DNA from: a virus
Length of the DNA: 33,560 nucleotides
Reading direction: 5' to 3' (one strand)
Virus record (IMG/VR): IMGVR_UViG_3300051212_000499
Location: 1-33,560 of that record
Made by a program: the position numbers and the translations under genes. Of the stretch, positions 4,433 through 30,732 are shown one piece after another. Within the stretch, counting starts at the first letter, position 1. Each line of letters opens with the position of its first letter. The notes below the pieces were generated by a model that had not been told where the DNA came from, did no database searches, and saw only the letters and a list, made by a program, of their open reading frames with translations.

Positions 4433-4435
4433 CCC

Positions 4436-4774: not shown

Positions 4775-4776
4775 CG

Positions 4777-5076: not shown

Positions 5077-5079
5077 CCG

Positions 5080-6135: not shown

Positions 6136-6138
6136 CCT

Positions 6139-7467: not shown

Positions 7468-7475
7468 TCCGCTCG

Positions 7476-7511: not shown

Positions 7512-7527
7512 AATCACGGACACGACC

Positions 7528-7994: not shown

Positions 7995-7998
7995 TGCC

Positions 7999-8320: not shown

Positions 8321-8322
8321 GC

Positions 8323-10502: not shown

Positions 10503-10978
10503 GCCATCTGACCGGAACCAGCATCACCGTCGGAACTCTGACGCTTCCTATCGTGGATTGCCGGGCGTGGCACGTCTGCGGACGGTCGGCGGCGTGCGAA
10601 AAAAACCTCGACGTTTCCGGCTGCGAATCCTGCTCGGAGCGCGTCAGTAGAGGCGGGGATCTGGAGGATCCACCGATCTACGGCTGCGGCAGGCCGGGAA
10701 TGCCCCGTGGAGCCGTCCGAACAGCAGGGAGGGCATCTGACCCGTCTACGGTCGCGGAGGCTCCAGCAGCCTCTCCACGCCCTCAGAAATGGCGAGGGCT
10801 GGGGGACGTGATCGAATCGGCTACCAAGGCAGTCGGATTTCGACCGTGTGGCGGGTGCGCTCGCCGCCGGGACGCGCTGAATCGCCTGATACCCTTCAAG
10901 GGCGACCCGCAGGCGCAGGATGCTGCCGGGGCCGCTCCGCGACCCGAACCGGAGACGCTAGGCGATCCGGAGGAGTGA
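10499..10978 (+). CDS. Zinc-ribbon-like small protein
   Basis: 159 aa, with the start at 10499 in an ATGA overlap with the cysteine-rich gene. The N-terminal 55 residues carry six cysteines (DCRAWHVC, ACEKN, GCESCSERV), continuing the cysteine-rich character upstream. The middle is low-complexity Pro/Ala/Arg. The C-terminal motif IESATKAVGFRPCGGC followed by ARRRDALNRLIPF resembles a CxxC motif I remember from short phage proteins, with a helix before and an Arg-rich helix after. Function unknown; metal binding is likely. Last gene of its operon, followed by a terminator. Confidence 0.65.
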   Translation: MSHLTGTSITVGTLTLPIVDCRAWHVCGRSAACEKNLDVSGCESCSERVSRGGDLEDPPIYGCGRPGMPRGAVRTAGRASDPSTVAEAPAASPRPQKWRGLGDVIESATKAVGFRPCGGCARRRDALNRLIPFKGDPQAQDAAGAAPRPEPETLGDPEE

Positions 10979-10992
10979 CGCGCCATCGCTAC

Positions 10993-11029
10993 CGCCGGGG
11001 GAGGTCACGGACGACACCCCCGGCGTTTT
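10993..11029 (+). terminator. Rho-independent terminator, + strand
   Basis: A 9-bp perfect stem CGCCGGGGG (10993-11001) / CCCCCGGCG (11017-11025), 15-nt loop, then TTTT. It follows the stop at 10978 by 14 nt and ends the tail, lysis and cysteine-rich gene transcript. Confidence 0.85.
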
Positions 11030-11035
11030 GCATGA

Positions 11036-11069
11036 TGAAACAACCCCCGGCGGATCGGATCGCCGGGGG
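11036..11069 (-). terminator. Rho-independent terminator, - strand
   Basis: CCCCCGGCG (11044-11052) pairs with CGCCGGGGG (11061-11069) over an 8-nt loop. Read on the - strand it is followed by TTGTTTC. It ends the three-gene - strand operon and has the same 9-bp stem as the + strand terminator just left of it. Confidence 0.75.
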
Positions 11070-11112
11070 TCGCATGGGGGAAAAGATGTCCGGGCCGGAG
11101 TGTAGCGGATCC

Positions 11113-11433
11113 TCAGTCCAGTTCAACCGGGAGGTCGCGCATGAACACGGGAGTGTCGTCGCAGGTTGCCGCCGGGCCGCAGCGGGGGCCACGGATCCCG
11201 TCACGCTTGCAGCAGGTCTCGCAGAGCGCGATCTCGGTCAGGTCGAGCGCGTCGTCGCTGCAGACGAGTTCCCCGCACCCGTCGCAGGCGATGAGGTCGA
11301 GGGCGTGCGCCAGCCGGATGCGGAAGGAGGAGAGTTCCCCGCGTACGGTGGCGGGGATGGCTGGGTTGCTGCGGATCGCGTCGAGCCGCTTGACGAGTTC
11401 GATTGCGTTGTGTGTGGCCTGATCGTGCTTCAC
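11113..11433 (-). CDS. Small zinc-ribbon-like protein, early - strand operon
   Basis: 106 aa, third gene of the - strand operon, starting in a 4-nt overlap with the gene before. The N-terminal 50 residues are helical. Then come CDGCGELVC and LCETCCKRDG, a CxxC...CxxC pair about 20 residues apart typical of a zinc ribbon, with two more cysteines further on (PRCGPAATC). It may bind nucleic acid or protein. The upstream promoter belongs to the same family as the early + strand promoters, so it is probably an early gene. No specific family is recognised. Confidence 0.65.
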   Translation of the reverse strand: MKHDQATHNAIELVKRLDAIRSNPAIPATVRGELSSFRIRLAHALDLIACDGCGELVCSDDALDLTEIALCETCCKRDGIRGPRCGPAATCDDTPVFMRDLPVELD

Positions 11434-11654
11434 CTTGCACCTCCCATGAGACGCATCTGCGACACGCGGGAAACCTCGCGAGCGTCGGCAGCGATGCAGT
11501 TGGCGAGCCGTTCAATCTCGTACGCGACGTTGTTGACCGTGTTGGCATCGGCGGTCGCGAGCATCCGGTTGAGCGCATCCACGCGCCTGCGGAGATTGAG
11601 CGCGTCGGCCTTCATGCGGCCTTTGACGCGGGGGTAGGTCGGGATATTGCTCAC
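11430..11654 (-). CDS. Small helical hypothetical protein
   Basis: 74 aa, middle gene of the - strand operon, with 4-nt overlaps at both ends. It is basic at the N-terminus (RVKGRMKADALNLRRRVDALNR) and fully helical in character, with no cysteine cluster or membrane segment. Coupling suggests a role shared with its two neighbours. Not recognised. Confidence 0.6.
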   Translation of the reverse strand: MSNIPTYPRVKGRMKADALNLRRRVDALNRMLATADANTVNNVAYEIERLANCIAADAREVSRVSQMRLMGGAR

Positions 11655-11923
11655 GCTGCACCTCCCTTCAGCGCGGTGACGATGATTGCGATATCGCGAG
11701 CCTCCACGACTTCGCCGTCAATGACCGCGTAGAACACGCTGCGTCCCTTGCGGCAGAGAACACCGATGCGCGGGTCGGTTGCGGCGGCGAGGATTCCCGC
11801 CTCGTCGCAGGTCATGCCATGCTTGGCGCGGCGAGTCGCGGCAGCGCGGTCGCACATCGCGTTGAAACGATCCTTCGCGTCGTGACGGTCTTGCGCGGCA
11901 TCCTGCAGGGTGACGATCTTCAT
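11651..11923 (-). CDS. Small hypothetical protein, first gene of - strand operon
   Basis: 90 aa, with SD GAAAGGA 10 nt upstream of the ATG. A helical N-terminal half (residues 1-35, rich in Asp/Arg/Ala) is followed by a beta-type C-terminal half (RIGVLCRKGRSVFYAVIDGEVVEARDIAIIVTAL). No family is recognised. Its leader has the promoter, 5' hairpin and CCGAAAGGA arrangement shared with 12686 and 19044, which links it to the early regulon. Confidence 0.65.
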   Translation of the reverse strand: MKIVTLQDAAQDRHDAKDRFNAMCDRAAATRRAKHGMTCDEAGILAAATDPRIGVLCRKGRSVFYAVIDGEVVEARDIAIIVTALKGGAA

Positions 11924-11935
11924 GGGTCGATTTCC

Positions 11936-11965
11936 TTTCGGGTTGGGAAACGCGGCGTGCGTTTC
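11936..11965 (-). promoter_or_regulatory. P1 leader: 5'-end hairpin with ACGCC loop
   Basis: Read on the - strand, GAAACGC (11965-11959) pairs with GCGTTTC (11953-11947) around a 5-nt loop ACGCC. It begins about 10 nt after the -10, so at or near the transcript 5' end. The SD segment downstream, CGA-AAGGAAA-TCG, could form a weak 3-bp hairpin with GGA in its loop. Confidence 0.6.
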
Positions 11966-11974
11966 GATGTCGGA

Positions 11975-12003
11975 ACGATAGCCTGTATCGGCGCAGGGTG
12001 CAA
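11975..12003 (-). promoter_or_regulatory. Early-family promoter P1 (- strand)
   Basis: On the - strand: TTGCAC (12003-11998), 17-nt spacer beginning CCTGCGCCGATACA, -10 TATCGT (11980-11975). An A/T-rich block lies just upstream (12022-12050), suitable as an UP element. Same family as P2-P6. Confidence 0.75.
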
Positions 12004-12051
12004 CCCGACTTTACACTTAGGGACGAAAAATCGGAAAAAGTTTTTCGCCGC

Positions 12052-12091
12052 AAAAAGGGAGCGACCCGGTTGCAAGGCAAATCCGGGTCGC
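12052..12091 (-). terminator. Rho-independent terminator, - strand, with no gene upstream of it
   Basis: GCGACCCGG (12061-12069) pairs with CCGGGTCGC (12083-12091), a 9-bp perfect stem. On the - strand it is followed by TCCCTTTTTG. No credible - strand gene lies between it and 12685, so it most likely ends a non-coding RNA. Confidence 0.7.
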
Positions 12092-12570
12092 TACGCTTCC
12101 ACCCGCTGTTCGGCCAAGCCTGCCAAGACAGGGCCGTGCAGCGTTCAACTTGAGGCGTGAGCAGCATACCACGCAAACACGGGGAAGCAACGCGGTCAGA
12201 CCGCAACGCTGCAGCCTTGCGAGAGGCTCCGTATCTCGGCTAGACGGGCGCGGCGAATGCCGCAGAGTCGCGGGGACTGACCCTACCCCGCGCCAGCGCG
12301 AACGCGCTGCGCTCCTGCATCGTGGAAGCGGCTGGCCCGGCGAAATGGTGGAAACGATGCCTATGGGAAACCTCGCTGCGGCTCCGTGCGGCTGATCCCT
12401 GACCTCGCGATCCGGGGTCATGGTGTTCCTACCGCCCACCATGCAACTGATTTCAACCGCGCCGAAGGCGCGGCGAGTGCGCGGAGCGCAACTGTCTGGA
12501 AGGGCCGTCGCCGGACGAATCCCGCCCCCCGCCGGGGCCATCCCAGCAGCCCAAGGCGGGGGGGCGGAAA
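12092..12570 (-). ncRNA. Candidate structured non-coding RNA
   Basis: Nearly 480 nt without a believable gene, packed with perfect local stems. Paired arms are 12522-12533/12555-12567 (one bulge), 12457-12463/12467-12473, 12419-12425/12437-12443, 12400-12406/12414-12420, 12317-12323/12354-12360, 12294-12300/12303-12309, 12269-12275/12286-12292, 12250-12254/12259-12263 and 12213-12217/12224-12228. Two pairs are neighbours that compete for a few bases. The - strand is preferred because a terminator with a T-run follows on that strand. No promoter was found, and the sequence matches no tRNA, tmRNA, RNase P or group I intron signature that I know. It could be another kind of structured or repeat-rich DNA. 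Confidence 0.4.
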
Positions 12571-12608
12571 GAAAATGGCAAAAGCGGAAAGATTTTCCTG
12601 CAGGCCGC

Positions 12609-12637
12609 TTGCACCCTATGCCGAAGTAGGGCATACT
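12609..12637 (+). promoter_or_regulatory. Early-family promoter P2
   Basis: TTGCAC (12609-12614), 17-nt spacer beginning CCTATGCCGAAG, -10 CATACT (12632-12637). A-rich DNA lies upstream (12567-12596). It drives the gene at 12686. Confidence 0.7.
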
Positions 12638-12643
12638 TCGCAC

Positions 12644-12683
12644 GTCAGGCACGTCGTCTGACTCAACCCCGAAAGGACTTTCG
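12644..12683 (+). promoter_or_regulatory. P2 leader: ACGTC-loop hairpin and GGA-loop hairpin over the SD
   Basis: First hairpin: 12644-12650 pairs with 12656-12662 (7 bp, including one G-U), loop ACGTC, at the predicted +1. Second hairpin: CGAAA (12670-12674) pairs with TTTCG (12679-12683), loop GGAC, so the SD GGA is in the loop 8 nt before the ATG. The G-U pair argues for RNA rather than a DNA palindrome. Confidence 0.6.
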
Positions 12684-12685
12684 CA

Positions 12686-13267
12686 ATGCTGACCCCAACC
12701 GACCCCATCGCCGTCGCCCTCCTCTCTCGTCTTGCGGATGTGAAGGAGCAGATCGCGAGCACTCTCACGCAGCAGTACGTCACCATCAGCACGCGCTACG
12801 CGCTGCCGGGCGGTGGCTGGGGGCTGACCCGTGAGCAGTCGTTCCGAATGTCGTCTGCAGTCGCACAGGAGTTCTACGAGGCGACTAGTTTTTCTGCAAC
12901 GATCCAGCGCAACCCGTTCTCCACCGATTCGCAGGGCGTGAACTACACCTACGGCGCGATGGATTCCGCAAAGATCAACGAGACTGCGGAACGCAAGGCT
13001 CGCGAGACGTGCCTTGAATGGCACGCCAAGTTGCTTGGCAAACTCGGCGCGGTCGAGTCGTGCCAGATCCTGCACGACGGCGGATACAACTTCCGCATTC
13101 AGGTTTGCAAGGCTGGCATCGCGCAGCCCATCACGATCATGCAGCAGATCGTCTGGAAGGTCGCGAAGCGTCGTGGAAACTGGTTCGCGCAGTTCCCGTC
13201 GCGCATCTACGTCGGCGGCACGTTCGTGCCGGAGAAGAAGTTCCGCGAGATGTGCGCGGCGATCTAA
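12686..13267 (+). CDS. Early hypothetical protein
   Basis: 193 aa, sole gene of the P2 transcript, with start fixed by the GAAAGGAC SD in the leader. Helical N-terminal 35 residues (AVALLSRLADVKEQIASTL) precede a Tyr/Ser-rich section and a basic C-terminal third (VWKVAKRRGNWFAQFPSR). There is no membrane segment. Having its own promoter and hairpin terminator suggests strong or separately timed expression. I cannot name a family; a DNA-binding or host-takeover role would be guesswork. Confidence 0.7.
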   Translation: MLTPTDPIAVALLSRLADVKEQIASTLTQQYVTISTRYALPGGGWGLTREQSFRMSSAVAQEFYEATSFSATIQRNPFSTDSQGVNYTYGAMDSAKINETAERKARETCLEWHAKLLGKLGAVESCQILHDGGYNFRIQVCKAGIAQPITIMQQIVWKVAKRRGNWFAQFPSRIYVGGTFVPEKKFREMCAAI

Positions 13268-13279
13268 CCCGGAGTCGGC

Positions 13280-13304
13280 CCTCCCCGGCATCGGGCCGGG
13301 GAGG
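13280..13304 (+). terminator. Strong hairpin after the 12686 gene, no U-run
   Basis: 10-bp perfect stem (13280-13289 / 13295-13304), loop ATCGG. It lies 13 nt after the stop and before the next promoter, but is followed by AAATCGAAAA rather than T residues. It may act as a 3'-end stabiliser or a weak terminator. Confidence 0.5.
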
Positions 13305-13341
13305 AAATCGAAAACACGCGCAGGATTCTCGGCTACGCGCC

Positions 13342-13370
13342 TTGCACCCTGCGAGAACACAACGTACAAT
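13342..13370 (+). promoter_or_regulatory. Early-family promoter P3
   Basis: TTGCAC (13342-13347), 17-nt spacer CCTGCGAGAACACAACG, -10 TACAAT (13365-13370). Best consensus match in the window, together with P4. Confidence 0.85.
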
Positions 13371-13376
13371 CTTGGT

Positions 13377-13413
13377 GTCGGGAATGACCCCGGCCAAATC
13401 TGAAGGAGTCAGA
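13377..13413 (+). promoter_or_regulatory. P3 leader: 5' hairpin plus SD hairpin with AGGAG loop
   Basis: First hairpin: 13377-13382 pairs with 13389-13394 (6 bp including U-G), loop AATGAC. Second hairpin: TCTGA (13399-13403) pairs with TCAGA (13409-13413), loop AGGAG, which is the SD. It ends 1 nt before the ATG at 13415. A GGA in a small loop over the SD is the known binding form of CsrA/RsmE. Confidence 0.7.
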
Positions 13414-13414
13414 C

Positions 13415-13669
13415 ATGGATATTCGCGTCAATCGACAGAGTTTCCGCGCAGGTCTGCGCCTCAAGAACCATTCGGACAGGCTGATGTTCACGGAGTGCGA
13501 GGTTGTGCGCGTCACGGATCATACGGTTGTCGTGCGATGCCGCCGATGGTCACGCGACTCATGGTCGGAACCATTTCGCTGCCGTGATCGTGGAGGCAGT
13601 TGGACTGAGCAGCGGTTTTTCGTGCTCGGTTTCGGAACGCTGCTGGTTGACTTGGGAGGTGCGCGATGA
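13415..13669 (+). CDS. Small basic hypothetical protein
   Basis: 84 aa, first gene of P3, with AAGGAG 7 nt upstream. Short beta-type segments (CEVVRVTDHTVVVRCRRW) with a high Arg content; no motif recognised. It is followed by an ATGA-coupled gene of similar Arg/Trp-rich composition. Confidence 0.65.
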   Translation: MDIRVNRQSFRAGLRLKNHSDRLMFTECEVVRVTDHTVVVRCRRWSRDSWSEPFRCRDRGGSWTEQRFFVLGFGTLLVDLGGAR

Positions 13670-14001
13670 AATGGTCGCAGGATCGCGTGACACGATTCGT
13701 TCGCGATGGACACATTTCGCTGCTTGCGGAGTGGGTGTCCGTTGATGGGAGATGGGTCGGAACCCGACTCAAGCACGATTGGGAGGAAGGGTTTGAAAGC
13801 AACTGGTGGACTGTTCAAAACGGCAAGGCCGTCGATCATCGGTTGTTCCCTCGTGGAGAGCGCGTCCGCATCGTGGATGTGGTTGATCCGTGGGACGGTA
13901 CGCGCACGTCAATCATCGCGTTCCGAATCAACGACCTAGAGGATTGGCGCAGGAATCTGCGCGAGGACTCGCGGCGAGCGCGGGAGAACGGCTGGCTATA
14001 G
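13666..14001 (+). CDS. Small hypothetical protein
   Basis: 111 aa, coupled to the gene before by a 4-nt overlap. Beta-type with many Trp, Arg and Asp; the C-terminus is a charged helix (DLEDWRRNLREDSRRARENG). No family recognised. It ends the P3 transcript unit; the 134 nt after it hold no clear U-tailed terminator and then promoter P4. Confidence 0.65.
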   Translation: MKWSQDRVTRFVRDGHISLLAEWVSVDGRWVGTRLKHDWEEGFESNWWTVQNGKAVDHRLFPRGERVRIVDVVDPWDGTRTSIIAFRINDLEDWRRNLREDSRRARENGWL

Positions 14002-14062
14002 CGATCACCGCCGCCCAGCCGCCGGGCATTCTAAAAAATCTCAGGATTCTCGCCTGCACGTC

Positions 14063-14091
14063 TTGCACCCTACGAGAACACAACCTACAAT
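14063..14091 (+). promoter_or_regulatory. Early-family promoter P4
   Basis: TTGCAC (14063-14068), 17-nt spacer CCTACGAGAACACAACC, -10 TACAAT (14086-14091), with TAAAAAATC upstream (14033-14041). It drives the operon that includes the CsrA-like gene. Confidence 0.85.
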
Positions 14092-14097
14092 CGTCGT

Positions 14098-14134
14098 GCC
14101 GGGAATGACCCCGGCCAAATCTGAAGGAGTCAGA
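14098..14134 (+). promoter_or_regulatory. P4 leader: 5' hairpin plus SD hairpin with AGGAG loop
   Basis: GCCGGG (14098-14103) pairs with CCCGGC (14110-14115), loop AATGAC, at the predicted +1. TCTGA (14120-14124) pairs with TCAGA (14130-14134), loop AGGAG, holding the SD of the gene at 14136. The operon encodes the CsrA-like protein, so autoregulation is possible. Confidence 0.7.
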
Positions 14135-14135
14135 C

Positions 14136-14423
14136 ATGAAGAACCGATCCCAACGCAATGCTGCCGCCGCGATTGCGCGTGCGGAGTCCACGCAGCGACC
14201 GCACGAACGTGATCTTGCCGTAGCCCTGTGGAGTACGAAGTCCTGCCTTGCGGAATACGACACTTGGGCCCGGAGATACGGCGCAGTCTGGACGGCGTGG
14301 CGGCTGCGATTCGCGACGAAGCGATTGCAAAGCATTCTGGACGGCACGGCTGTCCCGGGGAACAGGTACATTGCAGCGCAGCAGTACAGAGCGATGACCG
14401 CGCAGACGGAGGGAACCCGATGA
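14136..14423 (+). CDS. Small hypothetical protein, first in the csrA-like operon
   Basis: 95 aa, basic and helical, with an Ala/Arg/Gln-rich N-terminus (NRSQRNAAAAIARAEST) and a Trp/Arg helix in the middle (ARRYGAVWTAWRLRFATKRL). The start is fixed by the AGGAG loop SD. It overlaps the next gene by 4 nt. Not recognised. Confidence 0.65.
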   Translation: MKNRSQRNAAAAIARAESTQRPHERDLAVALWSTKSCLAEYDTWARRYGAVWTAWRLRFATKRLQSILDGTAVPGNRYIAAQQYRAMTAQTEGTR

Positions 14424-14773
14424 CCCGGCGATGGAATCAGATCACGCTCGCGGATCCCACGGAGCCTCCGTCGTTGGAGATCCTCGACATGATCGGCGTG
14501 TGTGAGCGCACCAGCACGATGAGCGTCAATACGATGCATCCGCACCTGCACCGGATGACCGACAACGACGCTGGCACGGTCGAAACGGAATGGCGGCTGC
14601 GAGCGTGGATCGTCCTGCCGGACGGTCGTGCGCCGATCTACGTTGAGGGCAGCACCCCGGCGGAAAGTCAGGACGACAGCAGCGCGGTCGCGGAGGCGTT
14701 CGGACGCGAGGTCGCGACGAAGTTCGTGCAATCGCTGATGCGTCTGCTCGCGGACACGGGAGGCGACGAATGA
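14420..14773 (+). CDS. Small hypothetical protein
   Basis: 117 aa. The start at 14420 in an ATGA overlap is preferred to an upstream in-frame ATG at 14228, which would lie deep inside the previous gene. A central strand-turn-strand section (TEWRLRAWIVLPDGRAPIYVEG) precedes a C-terminal helix (AEAFGREVATKFVQSLMRLL). No family recognised. Coupled on both sides by 4-nt overlaps. Confidence 0.65.
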   Translation: MTRRWNQITLADPTEPPSLEILDMIGVCERTSTMSVNTMHPHLHRMTDNDAGTVETEWRLRAWIVLPDGRAPIYVEGSTPAESQDDSSAVAEAFGREVATKFVQSLMRLLADTGGDE

Positions 14774-14967
14774 GCGAGGATAAGACGTGCGTGGTAGTCG
14801 GAATCCGCGATCACCGCGAGTTCGTCCGCCTGCAGACATCGCAGGGGGAGGTGGATGTGGAGGTGCGAGCGGTCGGCGCGAAGCGATGCCGCGTGTGCGT
14901 TCGCGCACCACGCGAGGTGAAGGTGCATCGCGTGGTGCGGGAAACGGAGGTGACGGATGACCGATGA
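14770..14967 (+). CDS. CsrA-family RNA-binding regulator
   Basis: 65 aa, close to CsrA length (about 61). From residue 26 it follows the CsrA pattern: GEVDVEVRAVGAKRCRVCV, then RAPREV (45-50), then KVHRVV (51-56). E. coli CsrA reads [32 protein letters not shown]. The Arg of VHR, essential for RNA contact in CsrA, is present. The usual LTRR start is replaced by a divergent VVVGIRDHREFV strand. CsrA dimers bind GGA in hairpin loops and control translation or stability. Leaders of this phage show such loops (13399-13413, 14120-14134, 12670-12683), and this gene is third in the P4 operon. Homology is judged by eye. Confidence 0.75.
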   Translation: MSEDKTCVVVGIRDHREFVRLQTSQGEVDVEVRAVGAKRCRVCVRAPREVKVHRVVRETEVTDDR

Positions 14968-15163
14968 CATCGTGGCGCGGCTGCGCTCGACTGGTGGATT
15001 AGACGCGAGACTCCTGTGCGCCGCCGCCGACGAGATCGAGCGGCTACGCGCCGAGCGCGACGAGGCGAGGCGCTTGATCTGCGATTTGTCATGGGTTGAT
15101 TCGCGAGAAGTCGCAAAACAGATGGGATGGGACTGCTTCAAGGGGGTGGCGAATGAGCAATGA
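14957..15163 (+). CDS. Tandem coiled-coil paralogue 1 (WDCFK tail)
   Basis: 68 aa, overlapping the csrA-like gene by 11 nt. Pattern: DDIVARLRS, AADEIERLRAERDEARR (coiled coil, residues about 24-41), GWDCFKG near the C-terminus. It is the first of five neighbouring genes sharing the coiled coil and the WDC(F/Y)K tail. It resembles the phage early proteins with 'eaADEIerLRae' coiled coils, whose role is unknown. It overlaps the next paralogue by 11 nt. Confidence 0.7.
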   Translation: MTDDIVARLRSTGGLDARLLCAAADEIERLRAERDEARRLICDLSWVDSREVAKQMGWDCFKGVANEQ

Positions 15164-16417: not shown

Positions 16418-16802
16418 TCTGGTGGAGGCTCAACGACGGCGGGACGAGGGCATCGACCGTGCCAGCGATGCCAGAGGCACGCTGCTGGCGCAGGCGCAGG
16501 CCATCGCCATCGAACTGACCGCCCACGGGCGCGAGGTCACCAGCGACGAGGTGGCGGCTGAAATGCAGCGGCGTGGGCTTGCCTACGACGGCCTCGGCAA
16601 CGCCGCCGGGGGCGTGTTCCGGTCGCCGCTTCTGGAGTGGACGGGCGCGATGAGGCCGTCCAGCCGGGTATCGACGCACGCACGCCTGATCCGGGTCTGG
16701 CGACGAAAGCCGCAGATCGGGGACGGCGCAGGCCGTCCGGCGTGTATGCTCCCCCGGCATGACCGACCAACGACCCCGCCGTCGAAGGTTGACGCAGGAT
16801 GA
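16404..16802 (+). CDS. Hypothetical protein, winged-helix-like phage protein
   Basis: 132 aa, with AAGGAGG 8 nt upstream of ATG 16404. Residues about 28-90 (LLAQAQAIAIELTAHGREVT, then SDEVAAEMQRRGLAYDGLGNAAGGVF, then PSSRVSTHARLIRVWR) look like a small helical/winged-helix domain that I remember from early regions of other phages, usually annotated hypothetical. The C-terminal 30 residues are low complexity and partly overlap the HTH gene at 16759 in another frame. A DNA-binding role is only suggested by the fold guess. Confidence 0.6.
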   Translation: MTLFDLVEAQRRRDEGIDRASDARGTLLAQAQAIAIELTAHGREVTSDEVAAEMQRRGLAYDGLGNAAGGVFRSPLLEWTGAMRPSSRVSTHARLIRVWRRKPQIGDGAGRPACMLPRHDRPTTPPSKVDAG

Positions 16803-16926
16803 GGTCGAGCGCATCCGAACGCTCAAGGCGCAGGGAGTCCCGCAAAAGGCCATCGCAGCCGAAATGCGCGTCTCGCAATCCTGCGTCTCGCTCATCCTCA
16901 ACCACAAGCGGCGGTTCAATCTCTGA
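16759..16926 (+). CDS. Small HTH DNA-binding protein (55 aa)
   Basis: 55 aa: a basic N-terminus (QRPRRRRLTQ), then DEVERIRTLKAQGVPQKAIA, then AEMRVSQSCVSLILNHKRR. This is a Homeodomain-like/resolvase-type HTH: first helix, second helix, turn at RVSQ, recognition helix SCVSLILN. It starts inside the end of the previous gene (44-nt overlap) with no SD, and TATGCT (16745-16750) lies 8 nt before the ATG, so it may be read from a leaderless mRNA. It ends 4 nt before the RusA gene. Likely a regulator. Confidence 0.7.
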   Translation: MTDQRPRRRRLTQDEVERIRTLKAQGVPQKAIAAEMRVSQSCVSLILNHKRRFNL

Positions 16927-16930
16927 GACG

Positions 16931-17359
16931 ATGCACCACCTTGAGGTGATCGGAGACGTTGCCACGCAAGGAAGCAAGCGGATCGTCCGCCTGCGGAACG
17001 GTCGCACCGCCATGATGGAGGCCAGCCGCCGGATCCGTCCGTGGCGGCAGGCCGTCGCGGAGGCGGCAATGGCGCACGGCATCCCGATGTTCACCGGGGA
17101 CGTGACGCTGGAGATCGTGGCGCGATGGGTGCGCCCCGCATCGCACTACCGGAAGGACGGAACGCTGCGCGGGAACCTGCCGCAGAGACCCGGATACGCG
17201 GATGCCGACAAGATCGCTCGGGGCGTGTGCGACGCGCTCGCGGGGATCGCGTATGCGAACGACAGGCAGGTCGCCGTCCTCCGCGTCGAGCGCAGATGGT
17301 GCGAGCCGGGCCAGCCGCCCGGAGCGGGAATAGACATCGGCGGCATCCCGAAATCGTGA
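16931..17359 (+). CDS. rusA: RusA-family Holliday junction resolvase
   Basis: 142 aa from ATG 16931. The catalytic segment follows the RusA pattern PDxDNLxKxxxDAL: residues 90-103 read ADADKIARGVCDAL with Asp91 and Asp93, then Asp111 in AYANDRQVAVL. The usual Lys four residues after the second Asp is Arg97. RusA-type enzymes act as dimers, cutting four-way junctions made by recombination and packaging-linked replication. It stands just before the ERF annealing gene, so the pair forms the phage recombination module. Family call by motif; confidence high. Confidence 0.85.
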   Translation: MHHLEVIGDVATQGSKRIVRLRNGRTAMMEASRRIRPWRQAVAEAAMAHGIPMFTGDVTLEIVARWVRPASHYRKDGTLRGNLPQRPGYADADKIARGVCDALAGIAYANDRQVAVLRVERRWCEPGQPPGAGIDIGGIPKS

Positions 17360-17369: not shown

Positions 17370-17397
17370 TTGCACCTACGCCGGGAAAGGCTATAGT
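17370..17397 (+). promoter_or_regulatory. Early-family promoter P5
   Basis: TTGCAC (17370-17375), 16-nt spacer beginning CTACGCCGGGAAA (one C shorter than the others), -10 TATAGT (17392-17397). Drives the recombination operon from 17453. Confidence 0.8.
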
Positions 17398-17403
17398 GTC
17401 GAA

Positions 17404-17446
17404 GGGCGCGACGTTCGCGCCCGTGAATGCAAGGAACTGCAAGGAG
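17404..17446 (+). promoter_or_regulatory. P5 leader: ACGTT-loop hairpin, GGA-loop hairpin and SD
   Basis: GGGCGCG (17404-17410) pairs with CGCGCCC (17416-17422), loop ACGTT, at the predicted +1. TGCA (17428-17431) pairs with TGCA (17438-17441), loop AGGAAC with a GGA, next to the true SD AAGGAG (17441-17446). Confidence 0.6.
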
Positions 17447-17452
17447 AAGACC

Positions 17453-18217
17453 ATGCAGCAGAGTCAGAGCATCGGAGCGTTGGTTGCGGCAATCGCCAAG
17501 GCGCAGCAGGAGATCCGAAATCCCGCGCTTGACAAGGCGCATCCGCATTTCAAGGGCTTTCGCTACGCATCGTTGGGAAGCCATATAGACGCGATCCGCG
17601 AGCCGTTTGCCCGGAACGGGCTGGTGATCTCGCAGGGAGTCAACAGCGACGACATGAGGGTCAGCGTCACGACGCTGATCGCGCACACCAGCGGCGAGTG
17701 GATGAGCAGCACGGTCGGGATGAACATCGCGGAGAAGGCCACGGCGCAGAACCTCGGCGCGTGCGTGACGTACCTGCGGCGTTACGCGCTGGCCGCGATG
17801 TGCCTGCTGACCGGAGACGACGACACCGACGCGGAGGAGGATCGCGAGGCAAAGGTCGAGCGTCCAGCCGTCCGCGCACCGCAGCGTGACGTGTTCGATC
17901 CGACCCCTGTCAACGCACCGACAGGCGCGGCCCGGCCTCCGGCCAAGTCATGGCCGGACAGCGGCAAGGACGTGGTGATCGTGGAGAAGATCGTGCCGCG
18001 AGGCGAGACGAACGCCGTGCTTTGCAGGCACGCTACGCAGGGATCCTGCTGGGTGTCCGTTCCCGTCGCGGGAATGATGCCGCTCGCCGTCGATGATCGG
18101 ATCGAACTGACATGGAAGTTCAACACCAAGGGAGACAAGCCCTTCGCGGAGGCCGTGCAGATCGACGTGCCGCCTACCCTCAAGCGCGTCCGCAAGGAGC
18201 AGGAGATTCCGTTTTGA
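17453..18217 (+). CDS. erf: ERF-family single-strand annealing protein with SSB-like tip
   Basis: 254 aa. The start at 17453 has AAGGAG; an earlier ATG at 17396 lies before the predicted transcript start. Residues 1-125 are the ERF domain, with the diagnostic AQNLGACVTYLRRYAL (98-113) and the acidic GDDDTDAEED (121-130). ERF proteins anneal single strands in phage recombination. After a Pro-rich linker, residues about 165-245 form a beta-type domain (VVIVEKIVPRGETNAVL, CWVSVPV, RIELTWKF) that may be OB-like. The C-terminus ends QEIPF, like the DDIPF tip of SSB that recruits repair proteins. Partner of RusA and Gp157-like neighbours. Confidence 0.85.
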   Translation: MQQSQSIGALVAAIAKAQQEIRNPALDKAHPHFKGFRYASLGSHIDAIREPFARNGLVISQGVNSDDMRVSVTTLIAHTSGEWMSSTVGMNIAEKATAQNLGACVTYLRRYALAAMCLLTGDDDTDAEEDREAKVERPAVRAPQRDVFDPTPVNAPTGAARPPAKSWPDSGKDVVIVEKIVPRGETNAVLCRHATQGSCWVSVPVAGMMPLAVDDRIELTWKFNTKGDKPFAEAVQIDVPPTLKRVRKEQEIPF

Positions 18218-21599: not shown

Positions 21600-24593
21600 A
21601 TGTGCGAAAACCGTCACACCTTCTCACGAACCGAAACGAAGTATTTCGTCGGCGCAACGGAGATTCCCGCCAACCAGTTGCGACAGATTCCCGGTTATAT
21701 GTTTGCGGAACTGTTTCCGAATCGCCGTGACGGATTCACAATCAAGTACGGCACGAAACCCGTTCAGATTCCTGACAGGGATCGCATCCCCGTTGCGGAA
21801 CAGAAGGCAGACCATCTAGCGACCTTGGGGCATTGGAAGCACCGCAGGGTCGAGCGCGGCGAGATGACCGAAGCGCAGTACGCGGCGGAAATGGCGAATG
21901 CGGAGAAAAACTGGTCTCCTAGTTCTGCATTTGCCTACCTTGTCACAAACGCGACACCTCCGCAGGCCATTGACCGTGTGATCAAGTGGGAGCGAAAGGA
22001 AAAGCAGACGATGTGCGGAGCGAAGTGCCGCAATGCAAGGGGGCCGAACTGCGACTGCGTTTGCGAAGGAAAGTTCCACGGTGTAAGCGTCGGAATGTCT
22101 CGCGCACGGTTTGCTTCTTCGGACATCGACCTGAAGCCGACCGCAGAGATGGCGGCGAACGCTGAACGCGGTCTGAGACTGCGCGAGGAACACGGGCGCG
22201 GCGGAACCGCTGTAGGCGTGGCTCGCGCTCGCGACATCAAGAACCGCTCAAACCTGTCGCCTGACACGGTAAAGCGAATGCACTCGTTTTTCTCGCGTCA
22301 CGAGGGGAACCAAGCCGGGGGAGAGGATGACGCAGGCTATATCGCGTGGCTCCTGTGGGGAGGAGACGCGGGGAAGGCGTGGGCCGCTCGCAAGGTCGAG
22401 CAGATCAACAAGACGCAAGCCGCCCGAACGGGCAGAGGCTCAGACATGGCATCGAAGAACGGCGCAAAGGAAGCGTTTGCACAGATCGACCCGAGCGTTT
22501 CAGGCGTTCGGATTGACCCGTATACAACGAAGGTTCCGCTGATCCTCAAGGACGGGCGCAGCGTGACCGCCATTCGCACCAATGGACAATGGGGCATTGC
22601 TGAAATGCCCGAGATTGCCCCGCGATGGAGTCGCGACATCTACGGTTTTGTGGAACGGCTGAATCGTGATGGCTTCTCCCGCCCCGGCGCGAAGGCGAAG
22701 TTTGATCGTCGGATGGAACTGGATCATTGGACAAGCCCCAAGGGAACGCGGTACACCGCAGGAATTTGGGTAAGCGGGGATGGCCTTGGATTTCAGCCGT
22801 TTGTCAGCGCGATTTACGCGGACGGCGGCGAGCAACTGATGAGCATGAATACGCCGACCCTGAAATCTGAAAAAGGCGCACGAAAGTGGCTCGCCAAGTA
22901 CCTCGCGCAAAACTATTCGCGCACAGGAACATTCTCCCGCCCCGGCGCAAAGGCGAAGTTCGGCAACGGAGAAAACAACCGCAGGCTTTTGCAGGTGTTG
23001 GGGAACGCCGATTACCAACTTGCGAATAAGGTTGTGCAGAACATCAAGTCGCACTACGGCATCAGCGACGGGGAGGTATACAACGAACTGTTTTCCGACG
23101 ATGCGGAACATCTCCTCGACTATGTGACGGAACCAGTTCGCTCTGCGGCGGCGGTCATCTTGAAGCGCAAGGGAATGATGTCCCGCCCCGGCGCGAAGGC
23201 GAGGTTTGACTACACCGACGCGAAGGTAGAAGGCGATTATGTGGTTTGGGGAAACGGTCAACGAATGAAGATCGTTTACCAATCAACCATTGAGCAAAAG
23301 CCGCAAGCAACCCAAGAAGTCATCCGTCGCAATCCGAGACATTGGATTGGCGATTACAAACTTGAAGGCCCAAAGGGTGCGGTCTACTCGTTGGATTATT
23401 ACACCACGGGCAACTATCAGTTGACTGGGTCGGGGGGTCGAGTAATGATGAGGGGAAAGTTGTTGTCCTCCCGCCCCGGCGCGAAGGCGAGCATGGGACG
23501 AACGGAGGAAGAGTTTGCGGAGGATGTTCAGAATGCTGCGAATATCCTCGTGACATGGGCGACTGCTCTCAACCGTGCGTTGGGCATAAGGGACTACGAA
23601 ACGGCGAAGGGTTTGCTGAATAACATGAGCAAGACAATCAAATCGCTCGCGGGTGAACTCTCGCGTCCTGTGAATCGGATGTCCCGCCCCGGCGGCAAGG
23701 CGAAGTTCGCGCATTGGACGGAAACGACCCGCGTAGTCGAGTCCCTGAGTTACGAGAACATTCACACGGGACAAAAGGTGTCGGGTGGCGGTGCGGTTCC
23801 GTGGACAACCGAAGCGGGGAAAAACGATTGGAAGCCCGTTCGCTACTTTGTTTTCATGGACACGGCGCGGGGAACTACTTTTGGTGGCCGATACAACACG
23901 CAGGCAGGAGCGCAGGCGGCTTTGGACAAGGCAAAGCGCGATCACGCCGCCGAAGTCGCAAAGTATGTGACGGCCCCTGCGATTCGGAAGCGCATCGGTG
24001 AAATCGAAGGGGAACTTGCGGGCTTGGACAACCAGCCAAGTCTTGCGGGGCGCGTCCCGCGCATGGAACGGTTGCACGAGGAGTTGAACCGCCTTCGTAA
24101 GCAACTGACTTCGCTTGGCTTCTCCCGCCCCGGCGCGAAGGCAGAGATGGCGACGCTTGATGGCTCATATGCGAAGATTGAGGTTCGCTATGTGTTTCCC
24201 GACGGTACGGAGGACAGGGAAACGATGAGCGGTCCCGCCCGTAATGCTGCGACAAGTGCGATTCGTCGCATCAAGGCACGGGGCGTAGGCTCAAAGGCGT
24301 GGGTGATTGGCTTTTATCCTGCCCACCCCCGTGGTGCATACCCTGCGGGAACGGTAGAGATTTGGAAGGGCGAGGTAGCGAACGATGGCAGCGTGTATGA
24401 GCGCGGCGGGTCTTTTTCCCGCCCCGGCGAGGCAGAGGCGTTCGCCATCGGCGCGACCTCCGACATCGCAGATCCCGCCAAGGACGAAGCCCTGACCGCT
24501 CTGGCCGCGAAGGTCGGGCGAGAGCACACCGTCAACCTGTTCAAGCGTTGGAGCGAGGGCAAGGCGAGCATGACCCGCTCGGAAGGAAACTGA
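21600..24593 (+). CDS. 997-aa modular protein with seven SRPGAKA linkers
   Basis: N-terminal region (1-135) of mixed alpha/beta type; a Cys cluster CGAKC (139-143) plus CDCVC (151-155) ending in GKFHG, as in some phage head-region proteins; a helical domain (about 206-265) with NLSPDTVKRMHSFFSRHEG and WLLWGGDAGKAW, which I remember as a stand-alone domain in phage head operons. From 360 on, unrelated modules of about 60-140 aa are separated by SRPGAKAKF-type linkers at 360, 446, 528, 624, 695, 842 and 940. There is no membrane segment or protease motif. The position between terminase and portal suggests a virion or injected protein. The linkers could be cleavage sites or scars of module joining. 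No SD before the ATG. Confidence 0.75.
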   Translation: MCENRHTFSRTETKYFVGATEIPANQLRQIPGYMFAELFPNRRDGFTIKYGTKPVQIPDRDRIPVAEQKADHLATLGHWKHRRVERGEMTEAQYAAEMANAEKNWSPSSAFAYLVTNATPPQAIDRVIKWERKEKQTMCGAKCRNARGPNCDCVCEGKFHGVSVGMSRARFASSDIDLKPTAEMAANAERGLRLREEHGRGGTAVGVARARDIKNRSNLSPDTVKRMHSFFSRHEGNQAGGEDDAGYIAWLLWGGDAGKAWAARKVEQINKTQAARTGRGSDMASKNGAKEAFAQIDPSVSGVRIDPYTTKVPLILKDGRSVTAIRTNGQWGIAEMPEIAPRWSRDIYGFVERLNRDGFSRPGAKAKFDRRMELDHWTSPKGTRYTAGIWVSGDGLGFQPFVSAIYADGGEQLMSMNTPTLKSEKGARKWLAKYLAQNYSRTGTFSRPGAKAKFGNGENNRRLLQVLGNADYQLANKVVQNIKSHYGISDGEVYNELFSDDAEHLLDYVTEPVRSAAAVILKRKGMMSRPGAKARFDYTDAKVEGDYVVWGNGQRMKIVYQSTIEQKPQATQEVIRRNPRHWIGDYKLEGPKGAVYSLDYYTTGNYQLTGSGGRVMMRGKLLSSRPGAKASMGRTEEEFAEDVQNAANILVTWATALNRALGIRDYETAKGLLNNMSKTIKSLAGELSRPVNRMSRPGGKAKFAHWTETTRVVESLSYENIHTGQKVSGGGAVPWTTEAGKNDWKPVRYFVFMDTARGTTFGGRYNTQAGAQAALDKAKRDHAAEVAKYVTAPAIRKRIGEIEGELAGLDNQPSLAGRVPRMERLHEELNRLRKQLTSLGFSRPGAKAEMATLDGSYAKIEVRYVFPDGTEDRETMSGPARNAATSAIRRIKARGVGSKAWVIGFYPAHPRGAYPAGTVEIWKGEVANDGSVYERGGSFSRPGEAEAFAIGATSDIADPAKDEALTALAAKVGREHTVNLFKRWSEGKASMTRSEGN
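22677..24443 (+). repeat. Seven interspersed linker repeats (SRPGAKA-coding)
   Basis: Units begin at 22677, 22935, 23181, 23469, 23682, 24123 and 24417. The DNA is nearly the same each time: TCCCGCCCCGGC, then usually GCGAAGGCGAAG, including at wobble positions. The fifth has GGC for GCG and the seventh diverges after PG. Units three and five are directly preceded by ATG. A weaker SRPVNR sits just before the fifth. Confidence 0.9.
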
Positions 24594-24594
24594 C

Positions 24595-25443
24595 ATGAGC
24601 ACCGCAGGAAACACACCGAACTTCATCGCGGCAGAGGCCGTGCTTCCGTTCCGCGTCGTCAAGATGCAGGATGCGGAAGCCTTTTCCGTGAAGCATTTCC
24701 CCTCGGGTGACCCCAGCGACGCGGTGATCGGAATCACCGATGGCAGCGTGCGGTCGTTCCGCTCCAACAATCATGCAGACGCGGGTGATCCCGTGGTGCT
24801 GCAGAATGGCGAGTTCGTGCAGGTGACCTGCGGCCCGTCGGTACAGATTGTTGCCGGAGATGTCCTGTCCTGCGGAAACGCCGGAACCGTTGAAAAGGCT
24901 GCGATTGATCAACTGTCCGGAACGAAACGAGCGTATTTCGTGGCGTGTGAGAACGCACAATACGGGGAGATTTTGTGGGCCAAGCGGATTGGAGCGTACG
25001 AATCCACCACCGTGCAGGCGGATTTGGTCTATCCGTCATCCACGATCACTACGACGGATGCTACGGCTACGAATCTTTTGTTCCTCTCGGAACTAACAGG
25101 CCGGGCGCAGGGAATGGGGTTGACGCTGGGTTATGCGTCGTTTGGATTTTCCGCGATCCTGACGGGGACTACGGCGACGGGAGCAGTAGGCGGTGCATAC
25201 CTATTCCAAGGGTATATAAGGTCTGCTGGACTTGGCTCGGTCGCTCCAGCCGCTCCAATGGTCATTGTCGCCTCGACCAAAACAGTTCTCGGAGAGACCA
25301 ACGCCGCGATGAACGCGAATCTGGTGATCGACGCAGCAAGCGGTGGCCCTGCGTTTGAGTGCATCGGCCTCGCCGCAACGGAAATCCGCTGGTCGTATAG
25401 CATCAACGTCGCACTCGCCGGATCCCTCAGCGGTACGTTCTGA
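24595..25443 (+). CDS. Capsid decoration-like protein with added beta-sandwich domain
   Basis: 282 aa. The N-terminal 130 residues match the small protein at 29266 in pattern: LPFRVVKMQ / INPFRFVELN; VIGITDGSV / ILGVTDGSV; then alternating strands ending in ILWAKRIGAYES / IIRAFRIGTRVV. This is the DUF2190-like decoration fold. Residues about 140-282 (TITTTDATATNLLFLSEL ... ECIGLAATEIRWSYSINVAL) form a beta-sandwich of the type found on phage fibres and capsid appendages. It may sit on the capsid surface and bind cells or glycans. It overlaps the portal start by 1 nt. Confidence 0.65.
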   Translation: MSTAGNTPNFIAAEAVLPFRVVKMQDAEAFSVKHFPSGDPSDAVIGITDGSVRSFRSNNHADAGDPVVLQNGEFVQVTCGPSVQIVAGDVLSCGNAGTVEKAAIDQLSGTKRAYFVACENAQYGEILWAKRIGAYESTTVQADLVYPSSTITTTDATATNLLFLSELTGRAQGMGLTLGYASFGFSAILTGTTATGAVGGAYLFQGYIRSAGLGSVAPAAPMVIVASTKTVLGETNAAMNANLVIDAASGGPAFECIGLAATEIRWSYSINVALAGSLSGTF

Positions 25444-28012: not shown

Positions 28013-28018
28013 TACGAT
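28010..28018 (+). promoter_or_regulatory. Possible extended -10 fused to a stop codon before the protease gene
   Basis: TGATACGAT: TGA is the stop of the previous gene. If transcription starts about 7-10 nt later, the ATG at 28029 would be at or near the mRNA 5' end. No SD precedes 28017 or 28029. Confidence 0.35.
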
Positions 28019-29255
28019 GAACGCGCAAATGTCTCAACCATCGCACCGGATCACCGACGCAGGAGACAAGATCGTCATTCACGATCTTGAGGTGTTCTGC
28101 GCGTACGACCCGAACATCGACGGCGATCACGACGACGAACTGAAGGCGTTCACCAACGAGCGCGTGCAGGACATCGTTGCCAGCACGCAGCGATACATGG
28201 AAAAGGGTTCCTATCCGCGACTCGTCGTCATGCACGAACGCGATGGCAAGGAACCCAAGTCCTCCGTCGGTCGGTTCACGAACATCGCGTATCAGGATCG
28301 CGATGGTGTCGGCTACATCGTCGGTGACTGCGAGGTCGAGCGCGGCGTGTTCGACAAGTTGCTGGCGACGAACGCATTCCCGCGCCGCAGCGCGGAAATC
28401 TGGCAGGATCACAATCATCTATCTGAGGTCGCGCTGTTGGGTCGCGAGACCCCGCGCAGGCCGCTTCCCGACACGCATTTTGCTCGCAAGGGCGAGCGCG
28501 TGACCTTCAGCAGATCACTCCGCTTCGACATGGGGACGGTCGGCGGCGGTCTATCGACTTTCGTCCCCGGAACGGAAAAAACCAAGATGGCAGACAACGA
28601 CATCCGCAGCGAGATGTCCGCGCTGAAGGCATCGCTGGAGGAACTCGCTAGCGAGTTCAAGAAGCGGTTTGCCGACGATGCGGACGACAAGGACGAGATG
28701 ATGTATCACGAACGCGAGGAGAACGACACCAAGGAGACGATGGACGCGGACGACATGCTGGCGCAGCAGTTCGCGGAGGAGGAGGGCGACGGCGATGGAA
28801 TCCACATCGACATCGACTCCCACGGCGATGAGGATGAGGAGGAAGAGGAGGATCAGATGATCACGGCGAGCCGTCGTGGTCGTCCGGATGTATTCGCTCT
28901 CCGTCGCGAGAACCGCCGCATGGCGCGTGAACTCGCGGAGATCCGCGCCGAACTCAGCCGCGAGAAGTTCAGCCGCGAACTCGACGCGATGGAGCAGGAG
29001 GGATATCGCATCCCGACCGACCGTCGTCCGCAACTCATCTCCGAACTGTCCGCGAGCGTCGATCCCGCCGCTCTGCTCGACACTTGGCGCGAACTCTTCG
29101 CACGCGACCCGATGGGTGTTCGCATCGACATGAGCCGCGCCAAACTTCCCGAAAGCGACATCGACTCCCGCCAGATCGGTGATCTCGTCCGCGAGTTCGC
29201 CGGGAAGCCGGAGGAGTTCCGCAAGGCAATCAACAACCGCATGAAGCAGCGGTAA
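28017..29255 (+). CDS. Prohead protease fused to scaffold-like region
   Basis: 412 aa from ATG 28017; ATG 28029 is equally possible and ATG-less upstream sequence back to 27969 overlaps the previous gene. Residues about 1-165 carry the protease-type pattern VVMHERDG, VGRFTNIAY, FPRRSAEIWQDHNHLSEVAL and LLGRETPRRPLPD, as in phage I-like head maturation proteins. Residues 210-285 are coiled coil and extremely acidic (EEGDGDG, EDEEEEEDQ). The C-terminal 120 residues are a charged helical scaffold-like part. Protease-scaffold fusions guide capsid assembly and then digest the scaffold. Catalytic residues cannot be assigned by eye. Confidence 0.7.
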   Translation: MNAQMSQPSHRITDAGDKIVIHDLEVFCAYDPNIDGDHDDELKAFTNERVQDIVASTQRYMEKGSYPRLVVMHERDGKEPKSSVGRFTNIAYQDRDGVGYIVGDCEVERGVFDKLLATNAFPRRSAEIWQDHNHLSEVALLGRETPRRPLPDTHFARKGERVTFSRSLRFDMGTVGGGLSTFVPGTEKTKMADNDIRSEMSALKASLEELASEFKKRFADDADDKDEMMYHEREENDTKETMDADDMLAQQFAEEEGDGDGIHIDIDSHGDEDEEEEEDQMITASRRGRPDVFALRRENRRMARELAEIRAELSREKFSRELDAMEQEGYRIPTDRRPQLISELSASVDPAALLDTWRELFARDPMGVRIDMSRAKLPESDIDSRQIGDLVREFAGKPEEFRKAINNRMKQR

Positions 29256-29265: not shown

Positions 29266-29658
29266 ATGGCAGACTTCGGATTCACCCCCAATCTCACCGC
29301 AAGCGGAACGATCAATCCGTTCCGCTTCGTGGAACTCAACACCGCAAATCCGTTCACCGGGCAGTCGGCCAACGCCGCGTCCGACAACATTCTTGGCGTT
29401 ACGGACGGCAGCGTGTATCAGTACGATCAGACCGCGCACGCGATTGCTGGCCGTCAGATCACGCTGCAGCCGTCCAACACCGTGCAGGTGCAACTCGGCT
29501 CAGGCGGCGCGGCTATCGCAAACCTGCTGACCTCCGACGCAAACGGCAGGGCCGTCGTCGGAACCACCGCGCAGGTGTGCTACTACATCGCGCTAGAGGC
29601 TGGTAGCGAGGATGAAATCATCCGCGCCTTCCGCATCGGTACTCGCGTCGTTCCGTGA
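29266..29658 (+). CDS. Capsid decoration protein (DUF2190-like)
   Basis: 130 aa, with AGGAAAAAAAC as SD. Beta-rich small protein between the protease/scaffold and the capsid gene, where phages of this type place head decoration proteins. It shares the pattern NPFRFVELN, ILGVTDGSV, QITLQPSNTVQVQLG, IIRAFRIG with the N-terminal domain of the protein at 24595, so the two are paralogues. Confidence 0.75.
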   Translation: MADFGFTPNLTASGTINPFRFVELNTANPFTGQSANAASDNILGVTDGSVYQYDQTAHAIAGRQITLQPSNTVQVQLGSGGAAIANLLTSDANGRAVVGTTAQVCYYIALEAGSEDEIIRAFRIGTRVVP

Positions 29659-29694: not shown

Positions 29695-30732
29695 ATGGCA
29701 TTCTCAGTCGTCGGTGGTGGACTTTCGACGTACATCCCGTCCACCAATGATCTCGCTACTGGTGCGCTGCAGGTGGAGTTCACCCGCAGCGTCAACTCCT
29801 TCGCGATCTCGCGCTACGCGCAGATCGTCCCCGTCACCAAGATGACGGGTTTCTATCTCCGTCAGGACGTTCCCGACAACGTGCGGCTCACGAATGATCG
29901 TGAGTTCGCGTGGCCGCTCGGCAACGACCGCCCGACGGGCAAGCAGAACGCTTTCGACTTCGTGCAGTATTCCACGCAGCGGTTTGCGTTCCCGTTCTAC
30001 ATCCCGCAGGAGACCACGCAGCAGGCCGCGTGGGATGTCGTCGCGCAGCACGCTCGCAGTAAGGCGCAGTTGGCGATGACCTCGCGCACGAACCGCGCTG
30101 CGTCTGTCCTGACGGCGACGGGCAACTGGGGAAGCAACTTCGTTGCGGATCCGACCGCTTCTCCGATCTCGGCGGGTTCGTGGGCTAACTCCTCGGAAGC
30201 AAACGGCTACATCCAGAAGAGCATCCAAGCCGTCATGCGGCAGGTCAGCCTCTCGACGGGTGGAGCGGTTGCCCCGAACCAGTTGATCATGGTCATTAGC
30301 CCGACCGTCGCGCAGGTCATCTCGCAGGCTCCAGAGGTCAAGGCGTACGTCAAGAACTATCCGCAGGCTCTGAACTTCCTGCAGGGTTCCGACACGTTCA
30401 GCCGCTGGGGTATCCCCTCGACGCTGTTCGGTCTTGGCGATGTCGTCGTTGACGATTCGGTCAAGGTGACGAGCAAGAAGGGCGCGGCCTCTCTCACCAG
30501 CGAGTACATTTTCGGTGATAGTGCCGTGTTCGTGTCGCGTCCGGGTGGTCTGGTCGGCGTGGAGGGCGCAACGTCGTTCTCGACCTGCCAGATTTTCGCA
30601 TACGAGGACATGACCGTCGAGCAGTTCAACGATCCGATGAACCGTCGTATCGAAGGCCGGGTGATCGACAACAGCGTTGCCGCTGTCGTCGCCCCGGTCG
30701 GCGGCTACCTCATCCAAGATGTCACCCCGTAA
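29695..30732 (+). CDS. Major capsid protein
   Basis: 345 aa. The N-terminal segment (AFSVVGGGLSTYIPSTNDLA) precedes a core with FTRSVNSFAISRYAQIVPV, GFYLRQDVPDNVRL, a long helix QAAWDVVAQHARSKAQLAMTS, and the C-terminal EYIFGDSAVFVSR, AYEDMTVEQFNDPMNRRIEG. Length and gene order (protease/scaffold, decoration, capsid, connector) fit an HK97-fold capsid protein. No N-terminal delta domain is obvious, consistent with a separate scaffold. Own SD AAGGGA. Followed by two strong hairpins. Confidence 0.88.
   Translation: MAFSVVGGGLSTYIPSTNDLATGALQVEFTRSVNSFAISRYAQIVPVTKMTGFYLRQDVPDNVRLTNDREFAWPLGNDRPTGKQNAFDFVQYSTQRFAFPFYIPQETTQQAAWDVVAQHARSKAQLAMTSRTNRAASVLTATGNWGSNFVADPTASPISAGSWANSSEANGYIQKSIQAVMRQVSLSTGGAVAPNQLIMVISPTVAQVISQAPEVKAYVKNYPQALNFLQGSDTFSRWGIPSTLFGLGDVVVDDSVKVTSKKGAASLTSEYIFGDSAVFVSRPGGLVGVEGATSFSTCQIFAYEDMTVEQFNDPMNRRIEGRVIDNSVAAVVAPVGGYLIQDVTP

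Follow-up and report, generated by a model that had tools for sequence, protein, structure and literature searches.

Polyvalent proteins, in which 2-15 disparate domains are joined in one polypeptide, have been described from phages and conjugative elements (Iyer et al. 2017, PMC5512222), in a paper that does not use the word "linker"; in phages, their genes are located near late virion genes and the products are thought to be packaged and injected (PMC5512222). The internal proteins of phage T4 are small and variable, share a short leader (CTS) for head entry, are cleaved by gp21 and are ejected into the host; one of them, IPI, blocks a restriction enzyme (PMC9026906). The ejection or inner-body proteins of phiKZ and SPN3US are head proteins that are cut by the prohead protease before ejection (PMC9026906, PMC10052503). 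By layout, the gene examined here, in which small modules alternate with a repeated linker, comes closest to the first two of these kinds, the polyvalent proteins and the internal proteins of T4. In the literature that we searched, neither the string SRPGAKA nor this layout was found, and papers outside that literature may exist.

An array gene in the head block

The stretch of DNA analysed, referred to below as the window, is the IMG/VR virus record IMGVR_UViG_3300051212_000499 (33,560 bases). Its listed head genes are TerL, a Mu-type portal, MuF, a protease-scaffold gene, a small head protein and the major capsid protein. The array gene and its parts are as follows; other loci are cited by number with the prefix L.

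21600-24593, +, cassette-array polyprotein gene, open for 997 aa from an ATG
21600-21974, +, N-terminal segment, residues 1-125 (90% identity to L002/L003, 37-38% to L101/L009)
Residues 8-16 of the N-terminal segment, +, short linker-like FSRTETKYF
22011-22082, +, cysteine cluster MCGAKCRNARGPNCDCVCEGKFHG, residues 138-161, a possible zinc knuckle
22095-22115, +, short linker MSRARFA, residues 166-172 (same short form before the next domain in L006 and L009)
22119-22427, +, head-associated WLLWGGDAG domain, PHROG 2859, residues 174-276 (phrog_2859, E = 1.7e-10)
22449-22481, +, degenerate linker ASKNGAKEAFA, residues 284-294 (PSSM score 6.5)
22677-22697, +, linker 1, SRPGAKA
22698-22934, +, module 367-445 (88% identity to a module in another array, L009; also in L029, L101 and L159)
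22935-22955, +, linker 2, SRPGAKA
22956-23180, +, module 453-527 (linker-free, stand-alone small genes in Variovorax phage V45v66, 41%, and L210-L214)
23181-23201, +, linker 3, SRPGAKA
23202-23468, +, module 535-623 (53% identity to an L020 module)
23469-23489, +, linker 4, SRPGAKA
23490-23681, +, module 631-694 (73% identity in L006)
23682-23702, +, linker 5, SRPGGKA
23703-24122, +, module 702-841 (88.6% identity in L006)
24123-24143, +, linker 6, SRPGAKA
24144-24416, +, module 849-939 (48% identity to an L033 module)
24417-24437, +, linker 7, SRPGEAE, exact restart point of DNA similarity to L015
24438-24590, +, C-terminal module 947-997 (96% identity to L015, 72% to L007/L009)

The first-pass annotation had placed this gene between the terminase and the portal region and its linkers at residues 360, 446, 528, 624, 695, 842 and 940. 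Both statements are borne out: the gene directly follows TerL with a single 282-aa gene before the portal, and seven serines open linkers at precisely those residues. The description of all seven as SRPGAKA is accurate for five of them, the fifth being SRPGGKA and the seventh SRPGEAE(A). All seven score 20.7-34.6 against a matrix built from the linkers of other phages, whereas 200 shuffled proteomes reached 14.2 at best, and no SRPG..A linker occurs in any other gene of the window. Degenerate or short forms that the earlier annotation did not include (ASKNGAKEAFA, MSRARFA and FSRTETKYF) extend the array to the N-terminus of the protein.

Most substitutions in the array gene relative to its relatives fall at third codon positions (40/35/130 and 12/7/30 over the three positions), which indicates that the gene and its modules are translated and under selection as proteins. 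The cysteine cluster CGAKCRNARGPNCDCVCEGKFHG (22011-22082), which precedes the constant domain, is kept in 13 matches among relatives and is possibly a zinc knuckle. A structure model of the whole protein, with a 15-row alignment as input, is of low confidence (mean pLDDT 50.6) and places all seven linkers in coil with values below 50; it weakly suggests that the protein folds as separate beads.

Two further observations concern the surroundings of the gene. The 282-aa gene that precedes the portal (24595-25443) resembles, over its first ~135 residues, a 130-aa head gene at 29266-29658, before the capsid gene, and copies of this pair are found at both places in relatives. In the left-hand part of the window (positions 1-15000), the scanned open reading frames, several of them longer than 600 aa, gave no usable Pfam or PHROGs match.

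A family of arrays with mobile modules

Array genes were collected by a protein search of viral contigs together with a degenerate DNA search for the linker, and the resulting figures are lower bounds. The family has at least 71 genes with 2-9 linkers, in related uncultured phages, and the modules differ from phage to phage. The linker logo among these genes is [F/A/S/M]-SRPGAKA-[K/T/A/R]-[F/M]-[A/G]. Loci with real arrays have in common a head block of the type seen in the window, and among the matches listed the array genes with visible flanks occupy only two slots, one between TerL and portal and the other between MuF and protease. Genes in the latter slot share a leader, MS..R..I..RLG..ARPGAKA, in place of which the window gene has a domain.

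Modules are mostly 60-170 aa long, and module families reappear in different orders. A homologue in another contig was found for every one of the window gene's final seven modules, and in L006 two of them are reversed, module 631-694 coming after module 702-841. Module 453-527 exists as a small linker-free gene of its own in Variovorax phage V45v66 and in L210-L214, and stand-alone genes matching one module of the L003 array are found in phages of Rhizobium and Agrobacterium, amid many small hypothetical genes. The earlier suggestion of a growing chain of captured modules is thus strongly supported: homologues are reordered elsewhere, some stand alone in unrelated phages, and breaks in similarity cluster in the linkers.

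Pfam and PHROGs assign almost no function to the modules; for Pfam, searches of 68 members returned only DUF7678 and weak, chance-level matches. An end cap, ...DKAVSxKIRxLxxEGKPQxQAVAIALDxKRRGE, is frequently shared among array genes (L019, L021, L122, L103, L112 and others); it is probably PHROG 2423, which is matched by 38 of the 68 members. Occurrences of SRPGVK in L054-L081 and of SRPG in GC-rich antisense frames were rejected as linkers and judged to be chance matches.

A search of 257 Gb of genomes gave ten single matches, nine by chance and one (L205) a true relative. L205 (OMJK01000020.1) is a 6.5-kb contig of this phage lineage in a Nitrospiraceae bin, with the linker variants SRPGKPDTF and SRPGEPDRF; this is a weak hint that Nitrospiraceae are hosts of the L205 clade, too weak for a host to be named. 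No cultured relatives of the protease were found, and the best TerL among the matches listed stood below 27%.

The linker is conserved as DNA

At the nucleotide level the linker is a hyperconserved element of ~20 bp (TCCCGCCCCGGCGCGAAGGC), at either edge of which information content drops sharply; the first-pass annotation had noted neither this nor the recurrence of the linker in the scaffold protein. At the residues S, R, P, G, A and K, two linkers taken as a pair share their codon with a frequency of 0.83-0.98. The corresponding background is 0.86 for K, and for the five degenerate residues (S, R, P, G, A) it is 0.22-0.33. The loci in this test were fetched by protein similarity only, and the result is therefore free of bias from a DNA pattern. 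Linker DNA is 96% identical within genes and 95% identical between them, where codon usage predicts 75% and 73.5%, respectively; identity stays at ~95% even where the phages' MuF proteins share only ~40% and homologous modules have diverged to 40-50%. The phenylalanine at position +8, with a same-codon frequency of 0.51 versus a background of 0.60, shows no such codon conservation, so this position is constrained as protein only. The scaffold-protein counterpart of the linker, which is considered below, varies normally in its DNA. The linker appears to work at two levels, as DNA in exchange and as a peptide in handling of the protein.

Two other functions were considered for the element and rejected. 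An RNA hairpin is not indicated, folding energies of the linker being no better than those of shuffled sequences. An internal ribosome-binding site with a start codon does not fit either, position +8 being F and not M in about half of the linkers.

Exchange between phages at the linkers

When array genes were compared as DNA, similarity ended at 344 distinct points, 58% of them inside linkers, compared with 9.7% for random points; since linkers are alike, similarity ends tend to be placed in them for that reason too, which leaves the crossover short of single-base precision. The closest relative, L015, is 93% identical to the window on both flanks of the array gene, and its modules are almost wholly different; from the opening base of linker 7, the last one, the two are nearly identical again. 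Exchange of cassettes between phages at the linkers is well supported by these alignments. The window encodes two proteins that would be suited to it:

17396-18217, +, ERF-family single-strand annealing protein (PF04404, E = 1.5e-17)
16799-17359, +, RusA-like Holliday junction resolvase (phrog_140, E = 4.8e-20)

ERF was detected in 15 of the 19 relatives, the other four having none in records that may be incomplete. Two papers on relaxed recombination describe phage annealing proteins as recombining short or diverged tracts (PMC3945230, PMC2327257), and the ERF protein is a candidate driver of cassette exchange.

A protease-scaffold gene and the link to the head

The first-pass annotation had proposed that a head protease encoded at 28017 might cut the array protein at its linkers. 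Three features bear on this proposal.

28017-29255, +, predicted head maturation protease-scaffold fusion, 412 aa, from a Foldseek/BFVD fold search; candidate processing enzyme
28479-28511, +, linker-like FARKGERVTFS, residues 155-165, at the protease/scaffold junction (best of 2165 aligned head-protein windows)
28866-28898, +, linker-like ASRRGRPDVFA, residues 284-294, before the long scaffold helix (third of 2,165 windows)

In the fold search, the product of 28017-29255 matched the capsid maturation protease of Gordonia phage Jumbo (E = 7.9e-8), a scaffolding protein (E = 2.5e-5) and prohead serine proteases (E ~1.5e-3), and its residues H73 and S125 are invariant. Pfam, NCBIfam and PDB searches gave no match and PHROG one weak match, so that the predicted assignment as a protease-scaffold fusion comes from the fold search. 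In the structure model, a folded domain (residues 9-141) is followed by a disordered stretch (142-194) containing FARKGERVTFS and by a helix; next come another disordered stretch (220-288), with ASRRGRPDVFA, and a long helix (291-327).

When head proteins were scanned with the linker matrix, a capsid window (MCP 280) ranked second of 2,165, between these two sites. In relatives the second site reads ASRPGKADTFA or ASRPGRADVFA; the window's own scaffold site scores weakly (1.4, versus a chance 95th percentile of 4.9) and that of the other clade lacks PG. In L169, an array-type module (47% identity, E = 4e-14) is inserted in the scaffold protein at the point equivalent to ASRRGRPDVFA. The linker-like scaffold sites would fit a processing site shared with the array, but also a shared scaffold-binding motif. 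Cleavage of the polyprotein at its linkers by the predicted protease at 28017 is plausible, given the fold match and these two sites, which lie in predicted disordered connectors. The capsid segment FTRSVNSFA was rejected as an additional cleavage site, as it looks like ordinary capsid sequence and is conserved in all.

In Roseobacter and Synechococcus phages (including a CRP-811 sequence), the PHROG 2859 domain is fused ahead of what is annotated as the major capsid protein. Its presence in the array protein, the position of the gene and the analogy with known systems suggest that the array protein may be packaged and injected, as the first-pass annotation had also supposed. Separately, the scaffold half of 28017-29255 and the N-terminus of the capsid protein (29695-30732) have in common a motif, GGGLST[FY][IV]P (GGGLNT in the other clade), which is possibly a common head-assembly signal.

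Alternative explanations

The linker might be a capsid- or scaffold-binding motif and nothing else, within a multidomain chain that stays uncut and is either packaged or a core protein. This we regard as unlikely, while giving it real weight: a linker-like motif also lies beside the scaffold helix, the array gene is located in the head block and the scaffold protein of L169 holds a module, yet for binding a single copy would suffice where every module border has one, and binding by itself leaves the codon-level conservation unexplained. That conservation, sharp over ~20 bp, would be expected of a true site-specific recombination site, as would the cassette layout and the breaks at the element, and the gene would then be an integron-like array within one open reading frame, worked by a phage or host recombinase. 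But no tyrosine recombinase or integrase (PF00589) is present in the window or its 19 relatives, as far as these possibly incomplete records extend; resolvase (serine recombinase) matches fall below the cut-off and are broken by stops; and dyad symmetry of the linker is not significant against a synonymous (codon-constrained) null (P = 0.15), while the ERF annealing protein is common. With no integrase, no credible resolvase and no significant dyad, site-specific recombination was rejected as the main route, and we consider it improbable as an account of the linker.

The gene might instead encode a polyvalent protein of the ordinary multidomain sort, whose low-complexity linkers owe their identity to recent duplication; this is disfavoured and in our judgement very unlikely. 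Phages commonly have multidomain proteins linked to the virion (PMC5512222), but recent duplication sits poorly with linker DNA that is nearly invariant across phages as diverged as these in MuF and in the modules, and ordinary linkers do not account for the clustering of similarity breaks. Finally, since every array comes from metagenome contigs, the arrays might be assembly chimaeras formed at 20-bp repeats. Arrays recur nearly unchanged in independent samples (L032/L039, 99.9% over 1964 bp; L030/L040, 99.3% over 1468 bp), which argues against this, and the frames are open with third-position bias kept; we assign it almost no probability.

Proposed mechanism and its implications

On balance, we favour the reading that the array gene encodes a late, virion-directed, in-frame polyprotein whose modules are swapped at a linker that acts both as DNA and as peptide. 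The steps would be these. Linker DNA of ~20 bp stays near constant while modules vary, and exchange almost certainly breaks within linkers and in frame, to judge from the alignments; such breaks allow cassettes to be gained, lost and reordered while the gene stays intact. The exchange itself would probably be homologous, by annealing at short identical tracts, with ERF and RusA as its likely agents. The N-terminal head-associated domain would carry the chain into the prohead, or, for genes in the slot between MuF and protease, the short MS..R..I..RLG leader would make that delivery instead; taking both routes together, we think head entry a good prospect. In the head, the phage protease-scaffold enzyme could then cut the linkers near the F or M at +8 and free the modules, for which we see the chances as about even; the same enzyme would likewise cut its own two linker-like sites. 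Modules might lastly exit together with the DNA and act in the newly infected cell, for instance by countering host defences, a step on which we are evenly divided. Certainty falls in the order of annealing-driven exchange, head entry, cleavage in the head and action in the next host. More tentatively, and with rather more doubt than conviction, we suggest that one DNA element serves as both recombination tract and protease site, giving a quickly renewable in-virion payload of host-takeover proteins.

Arrays of this kind move gene-level mosaicism into a single protein, at its linkers, and make testable the long-standing question of how functional modules can be exchanged among phages with the genes left intact. 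Array exchange may explain how the set of proteins that these phages deliver to a new host changes so rapidly. Should the modules prove to be packaged, each array would list small phage proteins that are required as infection begins, and candidates for anti-defence and takeover functions could be read from the arrays directly; the SRPGAKA linker could also become a tool for head-packaged fusion proteins.

Comparison with known systems

Like polyvalent proteins, the array protein holds several unrelated domains in one polypeptide, and its modules also occur separately and reordered; array genes, too, lie near late virion genes (among the matches listed, in the TerL-portal or the MuF-protease slot). 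Unlike them, arrays lack MPTase, ART, primase, PBECR, LPD and similar domains (Pfam, 68 members), and consist of small orphan modules with one repeated, DNA-conserved linker that coincides with the points of exchange. The T4 internal proteins are separate genes with one leader each, cut after L/I-X-E, whereas an array is one gene with another motif, for whose product packaging and cleavage are proposed. The array phages are far smaller than phiKZ and SPN3US, in which, to our knowledge, no shuffled array with a uniform linker occurs.

Two systems of exchange resemble the arrays at the level of DNA. Lambdoid phages have conserved boundary sequences between genes, with annealing recombinases as the agents of exchange, and array modules similarly are bordered by short conserved DNA at which exchange takes place; the array linkers, unlike the lambdoid boundaries, lie inside one open reading frame and are also a peptide motif. 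Integron cassette arrays likewise consist of small units that can be exchanged, with a recurring site between them, but an integron differs from the array described here, which is one open reading frame of in-frame units, with no integrase found and no significant palindrome.
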